Positions 18,034 through 19,906 of a stretch of 64,000 nucleotides of DNA are shown one piece after another. Within the stretch, counting starts at the first letter, position 1; each line of letters opens with the position of its first letter. Both the position numbers and the translations under genes were made by a program. This DNA is from Pseudanabaena mucicola str. Chao 1806 (lineage in GTDB: Bacteria; Cyanobacteriota; Cyanobacteriia; Pseudanabaenales; Pseudanabaenaceae). The notes beneath the pieces were generated by a model, which worked only from the letters and a program-made list of their open reading frames with translations, was not told the origin of the DNA and searched no databases. The stretch is from assembly GCF_030323025.1 (NCBI RefSeq), contig NZ_CP097329.1, positions 1,581,001 through 1,645,000 of the forward strand, read 5' to 3'.

Positions 18034-18060
18034 GGGATAGTAAAAGATAAGGACACAAAA

Positions 18061-18936
18061 CTATCGTGATTTTAGTCGTTCATAACGATTAAAAAGTTCA
18101 TTAGTAATTTTGATGGCTGTCTGATTATGACTTGCTAAACATAGTGCATATAAAACTGAGTTTGTAGAATTTTTTATTAGAACAGGACGACTAACATGTT
18201 GAAAGAGTAACCTTAATTGCTCTGTATAAAGACTAGCTAGCCACTCAGCCTTAATTGTGTCCCGACTTAATGTGGGTTCAGATGAGTTGCCAAATAAATC
18301 TAGCTGAGTTACTGGAGATTCCTTATAAATTTGAGTAATCCATTCTGTATTACCCATAACTTTATTTATTTGTCTTACCACTTCTAGATCTGGATTTTGC
18401 TCTCTAGGAAGAAGTCTCGTAACGCCCATTACTGAAAAGTTTACAAAGATATCACAGGTTTTAGTATTAGCAAGTTCCTTGACTGTCTCCCAATCTACTT
18501 GTAGTCCACATGGAACTAAAAAAACAAAAGCCCGTTTCTTCGACGAATATGGAATTTTTGGAATTATTTCGTTGTATAAGATATCATTACAGTCGCCTTG
18601 ATAAGTTTCAATAATCTGATTTGGAAAATCTTCACGCAACTTTCTGACACGTTCTACTCTTTGAGGGTTAACATCCACAAACCAGTGTCCGTCAAATTTA
18701 ATTTCTGTTTGAAGCGCTCGAACAGGTGAACCATTTATGTAACGCTGTTCATCCTCTTTTGCTCTAGGTCTGACTGAGCCTGCAAACGCATCAATGTAGT
18801 AGTAATCTTTAAGCCAACTCTTTTTTTGCTCATTCATAATTACAGAATAAGCTTTGAGGTACTTTGCTAGTAAATCTAGTTTCTCCTCAGACCACCTGCC
18901 AATAATGCCTTCGCCTTCATTCCCAAACTTACTCAT
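18061..18936 (-). CDS. tcmP: Three-Cys-motif partner protein TcmP
   Basis: This 291-residue protein matches the TcmP family, defined by its habit of lying beside a three-Cys-motif (Gp37/Gp68-type) protein, as here. Visible marks are EKLDLLAKYLKAYSVIM near the start, YYYIDAFAGSV at ~45-55 (a methyltransferase-like G-rich loop with an acidic residue), WFVDVNPQRVERVRKL and an EGD-like YQGDCNDIL strand. The order suggests a Rossmann-type methyltransferase fold, but no activity is established. It starts 13 bp after the DUF5131 gene stop and is cotranscribed with it. Confidence 0.85.
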   Translation of the reverse strand: MSKFGNEGEGIIGRWSEEKLDLLAKYLKAYSVIMNEQKKSWLKDYYYIDAFAGSVRPRAKEDEQRYINGSPVRALQTEIKFDGHWFVDVNPQRVERVRKLREDFPNQIIETYQGDCNDILYNEIIPKIPYSSKKRAFVFLVPCGLQVDWETVKELANTKTCDIFVNFSVMGVTRLLPREQNPDLEVVRQINKVMGNTEWITQIYKESPVTQLDLFGNSSEPTLSRDTIKAEWLASLYTEQLRLLFQHVSRPVLIKNSTNSVLYALCLASHNQTAIKITNELFNRYERLKSR

Positions 18937-18949
18937 AATAATATTTTCT

Positions 18950-19741
18950 TTATTTAGAAGAGACTAAATACTTTGCTTCTAATGCACTAGAACTTTGAAA
19001 TTTAGAAACTTTTTTGTTTTGCCACCTATTAATATGGCTATACCAAGCATCAGGCATTTCTTCCCAAATCTTTTCTTCAAGGATTCTACCACCTGCTTTT
19101 GAGTGATTACCTCCCCACTGCTTAAAGAAAAAAGCAACGTCAGATTCTTGAGATTGCCGCAAAATATCTCTCACCCATTCAGCCTCTATAGGTCGATGTT
19201 TGTGTCCAGACTCGCCTCCAACAATTATCCAGTCAATTCCCTCTAAATTCAAAGAAAGTGAACCTAACAAAGGTTCACAGGAAAGAAAGCGAACTTTTGA
19301 TGGCACTTGCCTTAAAGCATCAATTCTATGAGCATATTTTTGATTCTCTACAGATACGCCAATCCAGATATTTTCAGCCCAATCTAACTTAGAGGCTAGT
19401 TTAGCCAAGTTTTTATCTCGTTTAGTCAAAATTTGATATATATGCCAAGGTGTATCTCGCATAACAGCAAAAATATCTTGTAAATACTCAAAAGGGATAT
19501 CTTTATGAAAAAGATCACTCATAGAGTTCACAAATATTCGACTAGGTGTACGCCATTTCTTTGGCTGATCCAATCTATCTGGATGCAAAGTTAAATTAAA
19601 TCCATCTGGAAAAGCTTTAGGAAATCTTTCTGTTATTGTCTCAGCATAGCAATAACGACAGCCAAGACTCACCTTACTACAACCAGTAGTAGGATTCCAA
19701 GTTTTGTCAGTCCATTCAATACCAGTGTTACTACTTGACAT
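18950..19741 (-). CDS. DUF5131 / phage Gp37-Gp68 family three-Cys-motif protein
   Basis: A protein of about 263 residues, starting at the ATG at 19741; the GTG at 19756 would place the -10 hexamer inside the coding region. It has the family start IEWTDKTWNPTTGCSKVSLG and the CxxxxxxCxYC cluster CSKVSLGCRYC, resembling the [4Fe-4S] ligands of radical-SAM enzymes, followed by PSRIFVNSMSDLFH, IYQILTKRD, WIGVSVEN and FLSCEPLLG, and IIVGGESG. The family occurs in phages and mobile islands; its reaction is unknown, and a radical-SAM reaction is only suggested by the motif. It forms a two-gene cassette with tcmP. Confidence 0.88.
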   Translation of the reverse strand: MSSSNTGIEWTDKTWNPTTGCSKVSLGCRYCYAETITERFPKAFPDGFNLTLHPDRLDQPKKWRTPSRIFVNSMSDLFHKDIPFEYLQDIFAVMRDTPWHIYQILTKRDKNLAKLASKLDWAENIWIGVSVENQKYAHRIDALRQVPSKVRFLSCEPLLGSLSLNLEGIDWIIVGGESGHKHRPIEAEWVRDILRQSQESDVAFFFKQWGGNHSKAGGRILEEKIWEEMPDAWYSHINRWQNKKVSKFQSSSALEAKYLVSSK

Positions 19742-19747
19742 TTTGTA

Positions 19748-19776
19748 ATTATACACTTTTCAGTGAAGTCGTTAAT
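19748..19776 (-). promoter_or_regulatory. Predicted promoter giving a leaderless DUF5131 transcript
   Basis: On the minus strand a perfect TATAAT (19748-19753) lies exactly six bases before the ATG at 19741. A poor -35 (TTAACG, 16 bp away) precedes it. Transcription starting seven bases after the hexamer would begin at the A of the start codon. Confidence 0.5.
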
Positions 19777-19906
19777 CTGCTTTACTCTGGTCAAATTCAT
19801 GTCAGCATAAAGTTTACTTTTTTTAACTGTTAAAAATTTTTTAATGAAATATTGAAAGTGCGCTTCAGTTAAACTAAAGGAAGTCATTTTATAAAAATAA
19901 GTATAT

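Follow-up and report, generated by a model that had tools for sequence, protein, structure and literature searches.

The window, the whole 64,000-nucleotide stretch of DNA analysed here, contains a two-gene unit in which a DUF5131 gene is transcribed first and a TcmP gene second, both on the same strand and separated by 13 bp. The features of the locus are the following.

18045-19857, no strand assigned: non-homologous segment with the pair, delimited by blastn against 15 congeneric spacers and a junction check
18061-18936, minus strand: TcmP, 291 aa, with a predicted RlmJ-like methyltransferase fold, of the short class (PDC-M41A) without the C-terminal wHTH
18505-18516, minus strand: TcmP motif IV, residues 141-144, Val-Pro-Cys-Gly, where 11 close relatives have Asp-Pro-Tyr-Gly
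18937-18949, minus strand: 13 bp separating the two genes, from the sequence and its ORFs
18950-19741, minus strand: DUF5131, with a predicted spore-photoproduct-lyase-like radical-SAM fold; the longest ORF reaches GTG 19756, ATG 19741 being preferred
19649-19681, minus strand: three-Cys motif C-X6-C-X2-C of DUF5131 (C26, C33 and C36, numbered from the GTG start)

Both proteins belong to the families named: DUF5131 matched PF07505 with 312.3 bits (E 2.9e-93; gathering score 28.9 bits), and TcmP matched TIGR04474 with 208.7 bits (E 1.5e-61; curated cut-off 53 bits). The host genome is a single 4.53-Mb contig, and a whole-genome search found each gene in a single copy. Both adjoining genes are also matched by the PDC-M41 models of PADLOC, PDC-M41A for TcmP (4e-59) and PDC-M41B for DUF5131 (1.6e-106), and DUF5131 matches PDC-M30B as well. 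The pair is already catalogued as the phage-defence candidate PDC-M41, with PDC-M30 as its relative, and this is the same TcmP and DUF5131 two-gene unit; the description of the system as uncharacterised in the first-pass annotation therefore needs the correction that it is not wholly uncatalogued. Comparison with relatives favours ATG 19741 as the more likely DUF5131 start rather than GTG 19756. With either start, the interval of the first-pass annotation, which had an upper limit of 19776, reaches beyond the DUF5131 gene. A promoter-like site on the minus strand (19748-19775) stops 7 bp upstream of the DUF5131 ATG and would imply a near-leaderless transcript; the promoter scan found nine sites against 6.4 expected, which is near the chance rate.

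The pair is flanked by a histidine kinase gene on the left and by dxs on the right, and these flanking genes diverge. In comparison with a same-species genome, homology stops sharply at 18044 and returns at 19858, and the 1.8-kb segment between has a GC content of 0.353 against 0.414 for the whole window. The pair was present by blastn in none of the kinase-dxs spacers of 15 congeneric genomes. These results, together with the family matches, confirm the 13-bp-spaced unit next to dxs that had been described from the sequence. Of 38 genomes examined from the order, four have a window-type TcmP; they include the window genome and all belong to its genus, and the other three carriers (G012, G015 and G026) have it at different loci. 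Because of the empty site in relatives, the low GC content and the different loci in these three genomes, the two genes seem to be mobile together. The junction check found no terminal repeats at the ends of the insert, no Rfam RNA was found at the insert, and transposase genes were not enriched near pairs (DDE_Tnp_1, 2/140 versus 3/132 in controls). The kinase-dxs spacer (window 18034-19906; loci L016-L035) is a variable site among relatives: 10 of the 15 congeneric spacers encode a small secreted-looking protein with a Cys-rich CDC(M/K)GCR(Q/R) motif near its C-terminus, that of G013 contains a membrane-like ORF of 161 aa, a further two contain other ORFs and the last two almost nothing.

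AlphaFold2 models were built on alignments of 42 (DUF5131) and 40 (TcmP) sequences. The TcmP model (pLDDT 91.8) is nearest in fold to RlmJ (Z 16.4, 3.4 A, 215 residues), followed by Trm1 (Z 15.1), and the RlmJ match extends over nearly the whole TcmP chain, which supports the methyltransferase-like fold proposed earlier. When TcmP was aligned by hhalign with an alignment of two RlmJ-family proteins, the match had a probability of 95% and a score of 59, whereas 12 column-shuffled decoys reached a probability of at most 0.17% and a score of 14. K19 of TcmP was aligned with residue 18, the motif X Lys, of an RlmJ-family protein, D49 fell within motif I, and position 141 fell on the motif IV Asp. 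K19 is Lys in all 126 other ungapped rows of the TcmP alignment, whose 128 rows include two copies of the window protein. The fold match, a sequence profile far above decoys and two aligned catalytic residues agree in showing that TcmP is related to RlmJ, which methylates A2030 of 23S rRNA at N6 (m6A). The likeness, at the level of the TcmP family, covers the near full-length fold, the motif X Lys, the motif I region, a GSP segment and the motif IV Asp. TcmP differs from RlmJ (PF04378) in having a motif IV of DP-x-G type where RlmJ has DPPY and in being paired with a radical-SAM gene; the window TcmP, moreover, lacks the Asp and, with no Pfam match at E 0.1, falls outside PF04378. Sequence searches with TcmP and DUF5131 against solved structures gave no convincing match, and a viral search using the window TcmP alone confirmed no relative. 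Weak sub-threshold hits to TIGR04474 occur in many genomes of the gammaproteobacterial phylum, and the RlmJ N-terminal signature was seen in two of six such loci read. Long TcmPs (L009 2255-3403 and L010 2326-3582) carry a terminal GMT-wHTH domain (PF22560; 2.6e-22 and 8e-7), the name of which recalls GMT mobile elements; the short class to which the window TcmP belongs is without it.

The window TcmP is altered at its catalytic motif, a feature absent from the earlier sequence-only annotation. All 128 other distinct TcmPs have Asp at position 141, in motif sets that exclude one truncated TcmP (L065), and Val stands there solely in the window copy; two residues further on, the window protein has Cys where the 11 close relatives have Tyr. 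For E. coli RlmJ, PMC3814359 reports that activity requires the motif X Lys as well as the motif IV Asp and is abolished by the substitution D164A. Because Val replaces the Asp equivalent to D164 of E. coli RlmJ, the window TcmP should, as predicted from its sequence, be unable to methylate.

The DUF5131 model (pLDDT 86.7) is, among the PDB chains compared, nearest in fold to spore photoproduct lyase (SPL; Z 14.3, 2.9 A, 197 residues), followed by viperins (Z 11.5) and RlmN (Z 11.1); the predicted fold is a partial TIM barrel whose top-ranked matches are radical-SAM enzymes, with SPL first. The three Cys of the C-X6-C-X2-C motif (TGCSKVSLGCRYCYA) are shared by all 42 aligned proteins, as the description of a three-Cys protein had led one to expect, and the window DUF5131 retains them together with 13 further tabulated positions identical in all 42. 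The canonical radical-SAM motif is CX3CX2C; this motif is absent from DUF5131, which did not match PF04055 at E 0.1 or TIGR04070 (spore photoproduct lyase) at E 1, and its sequence-profile search against solved radical-SAM proteins gave no hit. It matches mobile-pair A (TIGR04471) at 7.8e-25, under the cut-off of that family. The direct profile match between DUF5131 and SPL scored 25.1 against a decoy maximum of 23.1, hardly above decoys, and the comparison of DUF5131 with the alternative TcmP partner scored 31.1 against 21.2 for decoys. In SPL, the catalytic Cys is the hydrogen donor; it aligns to Ser78 of DUF5131, identical in 42 of 42 proteins, in a weak alignment that is barely above decoys. 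The predicted fold suggests that DUF5131 is a radical-SAM-like, SPL-like enzyme, in keeping with the radical-SAM-like protein of the first-pass annotation. Since the sequence-profile support lies near the decoys, the link to SPL rests on the predicted fold together with the exchange of TcmP partners, in which other families of the SPL-like radical-SAM group (a group that includes TIGR04070, PA0069/Rv2578c and mobile pair A/B) occupy the place of DUF5131.

A radical-SAM-like gene adjoins TcmP in 105 of the 108 places read, and 22 of these partners are something other than DUF5131: 18 are PA0069-type, three match the SPL model and one other was judged by eye. The three exceptions are two fragmentary or truncated TcmPs and one TcmP at a contig end. 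Among 386 cyanobacterial genomes, a TcmP match was found in 57 and a DUF5131 match in 73. DUF5131 lies within 3 kb in 44 of the 55 cyanobacterial TcmP places over the cut-off; ten of the other 11 have a CX3CX2C radical-SAM gene of PA0069/mobile-pair-B type within about 125 bp, and the last (G419) is a fragmented TcmP. The ten partners gave E <1e-160 against an HMM built on three genes of this kind, a pair of which belong to the ten; the three source genes match NCBIfam PA0069, Rv2578c and radical-SAM mobile pair B, each below cut-off, and the one tested against PF04055 matched it. For two further phyla (398 + 398 genomes, from gammaproteobacterial and Peribacillus loci, the phylum names being inferred), we read the 53 of 57 over-cut-off TcmP places that have a locus; three of the four unread ones are second TcmPs a few kb from a read one. 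DUF5131 is the partner in 39 of these 53 places and a PA0069-type gene in eight, while three partners match TIGR04070 (E 1.7e-23, 2.6e-15 and 7e-9), one of them also matching SPL in a PDB search; one other, radical-SAM-like as judged by eye, lies 13 bp downstream, and two places are exceptions. Seen from the other gene, TcmP lies within 3 kb in 66 of the best-scoring 80 diverse DUF5131 loci and within 105 bp in 64, in four arrangements.

The proposition that TcmP is always paired with DUF5131 was rejected: another radical-SAM-like gene takes its place beside 10 TcmPs of cyanobacteria and 12 of the 53 from the other phyla. The replacement of DUF5131 beside TcmP by several SPL-like families is the best evidence for the identity of DUF5131, and it suggests that the system is defined by the association rather than by DUF5131. 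The obligate partnership claimed by the first-pass annotation thus holds for TcmP as a need for a radical-SAM-like neighbour, but the neighbour may be other than DUF5131, and DUF5131 often occurs without TcmP; that the pairing recurs was borne out in bacteria, plasmids and phages. Some loci hold more than one TcmP: on S. meliloti pSymA (L103 5253-10914), one DUF5131 and two TcmPs, of the short and the long class, lie by a large helicase-like ORF, and a second TcmP is close to the first also in G660, G688 and G745. On a P. aeruginosa conjugative plasmid (L110 4922-8079), an integrase, DUF5131 and a long TcmP follow one another consecutively.

On balance, we consider it probable that the locus is a mobile pair modifying nucleic-acid bases, in which the methyltransferase is here disabled and the radical enzyme intact. 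On this reading TcmP is a class I methyltransferase of the RlmJ type; where intact, it would most likely act on an exocyclic amine in RNA or DNA, with adenine N6 as the first choice, and would use the motif IV Asp and the Lys of the first helix for catalysis. Its SPL-like radical-SAM partner, here DUF5131, would most likely carry out radical chemistry on the same substrate, as a further modification or as reversal or repair. The nucleic-acid modification or repair already considered in the first-pass annotation fits both nearest structures, RlmJ and SPL. The window pair should not methylate, because its TcmP is without the catalytic Asp; its DUF5131 keeps the three Cys and the further tabulated invariant positions. 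The pair would then be either partly decayed or a unit whose TcmP persists as a non-catalytic subunit. As to what intact pairs do, defence or conflict has close to an even chance, nucleic-acid repair or maintenance is rather unlikely, and a role of another kind is unlikely.

That the two genes form an anti-phage defence unit modifying or damaging invading nucleic acid, of which the window copy is a disabled remnant, is a reading to which we give slightly less than an even chance. The PADLOC candidates PDC-M41 and PDC-M30 and the patchy distribution speak for it, as do a few contexts picked by hand. BREX, Abi or Hna-like neighbours occur in three of eight hand-picked plasmid or phage regions: BREX genes lie by the pair on a Nostoc plasmid, Abi genes on a Leisingera plasmid, and a helicase-like ORF, taken as Hna, adjoins the two TcmPs of S. 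meliloti pSymA (the Hna/TcmP locus tags come from a table in PMC12445080). In Gordonia phage Jablanski, likewise hand-picked, the pair lies between the integrase and the immunity repressor. In PMC10855318, 32 of the 100 P. aeruginosa strains have a predicted PDC-M30, and the resistant group accounts for 68.8% of these carriers, which is a correlation only. The neighbourhood statistics argue against defence in cyanobacteria. For each of 20 cyanobacterial loci with DUF5131, TcmP or both, a crude ORF caller supplied the seven ORFs that lie closest to the centre and are no shorter than 100 aa, and control regions were taken 100 kb off on the same contigs (133 proteins, of which one very long one was dropped and 132 were scanned). 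The 140 neighbour proteins matched 15 PADLOC families versus 152 for the 132 control proteins, these being counts of families matched, not of proteins with a match, as one protein can match many models. There was thus no enrichment, and a defence island as the main evidence was rejected for cyanobacteria; the defence role suggested in the first-pass annotation keeps only the hand-picked contexts on its side.

The ileS gene lies near the pair, DUF5131 or TcmP remnants in 5 of 42 cyanobacterial loci (L191, L192, L203, L204 and L246), all of one family, and in none of 80 diverse loci. This neighbour, too, counts against defence, and a functional link to IleRS was rejected, as the association is confined to one cyanobacterial family and shared descent is likelier. 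No phage assay was found in the accessible parts of the literature. Its chiefly open-access sources (PMC12445080, PMC12429752, PMC10855318 and PMC11878078) gave, in their accessible parts, no reaction for TcmP or DUF5131, and the same is true of the accessible parts of PMC12629846, PMC10853773 and PMC12988326; what touches the two proteins there consists of table entries, correlations and general remarks on PDCs. No literature was found on the name DUF5131, and among the matches listed the name TcmP appeared in other meanings only. PDC-M41 is a listed candidate only, to which the folds, the partner swap and the Asp loss in the window copy are added here.

The converse distribution bears on another possibility, which we regard as unlikely, namely that TcmP leaves a harmful mark which the SPL-like enzyme takes off or neutralises, the solitary DUF5131 of phages being an antidote. 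Every intact TcmP that was read with sufficient flanks has a radical-SAM-like neighbour, whereas DUF5131 without TcmP is frequent, above all in viral contigs. In cyanobacteria, it was found at 22 of 66 places scoring at least about 146 bits, a count that excludes lower-scoring rows and fragments and in which some of the 22 places may lie at contig ends. The best-scoring diverse loci comprise 10 without TcmP (at least 2 kb on both sides) versus 66 with it, and the best-scoring viral contig loci comprise 32 versus 37 (viral against genome loci, Fisher p 1.7e-5). The 80 diverse and 80 viral loci are the best-scoring of larger sets, not random samples, and the flank filter (<2 kb on one side) set aside 4 of 14 diverse and 11 of 43 viral TcmP-less loci, TcmP-bearing loci being unfiltered. 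The viral and genome sets also differ in divergence, and within a hand-made similarity band (viral 7 of 13 versus genome 66 of 76) the p value is 0.011. Intact DUF5131 stands beside an interrupted or stop-broken TcmP in G012, G347, G355 and G124 and beside a remnant in G134, five genomes in all, and beside the motif-dead TcmP of the window; in the cyanobacterial set, no intact TcmP was found beside a broken DUF5131, save in G192, where DUF5131 runs off the contig. The broken TcmPs of draft genomes are, however, possibly sequencing errors, G355 and G124 having a single stop each. The asymmetry fits an antidote, but it would also follow if TcmP is useless on its own, needing the product of its partner, or if DUF5131 has a job of its own.

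No constant substitute partner was found in the 32 TcmP-less viral loci, in which no cluster except DUF5131 spans more than 5 of the 32. Among viral loci L259-L337, a cluster with a helicase-like member occurs in five TcmP-less loci and an ASCH-like one in three, the names being tentative. A TcmP-less DUF5131 (L150 8307-9596) lies near a putative cytosine-C5 DNA methyltransferase gene, named by eye. Extending the harmful-mark idea, TcmP and an SPL-like radical-SAM enzyme may form a general modification-and-reversal system, toxin-antidote-like and with exchangeable radical halves. TcmP would place on bases a mark that is harmful or denotes non-self, to be removed or converted by the radical enzyme; phages would have only the radical half, as an antidote, and hosts like the present one would disarm TcmP first and keep the radical half. 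We consider this a speculative and distinctly unlikely generalisation.

It is also doubtful that a non-catalytic TcmP has been retained in this lineage to serve DUF5131 as a subunit for binding or specificity. In favour of such a subunit, both motif changes fall within three residues, the remaining ORF is intact and the protein is not fast-evolving. Relaxed selection on the gene as a whole was rejected, as dN/dS over the full length of the window TcmP shows no rise; the Asp loss is therefore recent, or TcmP has been retained and is still under selection. On the other side, the same change occurs in 0 of 128 other distinct TcmPs, and the window protein has eight private changes at otherwise invariant columns, a number that is high yet in the range of the other eleven (1-9). 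A light-damage repair unit of SPL type carried by cyanobacteria is very unlikely, since, for all that SPL is the nearest DUF5131 fold and three TcmP partners match TIGR04070, pairs also occur in plasmids, phages and many non-photosynthetic bacteria and the SPL catalytic Cys falls on the invariant Ser in the weak alignment.

The kinship of TcmP with RlmJ, the SPL fold of DUF5131 as predicted, the partner rule with its swaps and the Asp loss in the window copy are new here. For tests of defence or methylation, an intact relative would be preferable to the window copy, which is a natural loss of the catalytic site; a phage challenge with the window pair could come out negative merely because its TcmP is predicted to be dead. 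Where earlier there were two families with no known reaction and a defence candidate, named residues are now available to test, and a pair that occurs in phages as well as in the three phyla surveyed gains a biochemical hypothesis, that of an m6A-type methyltransferase joined to an SPL-like radical enzyme.
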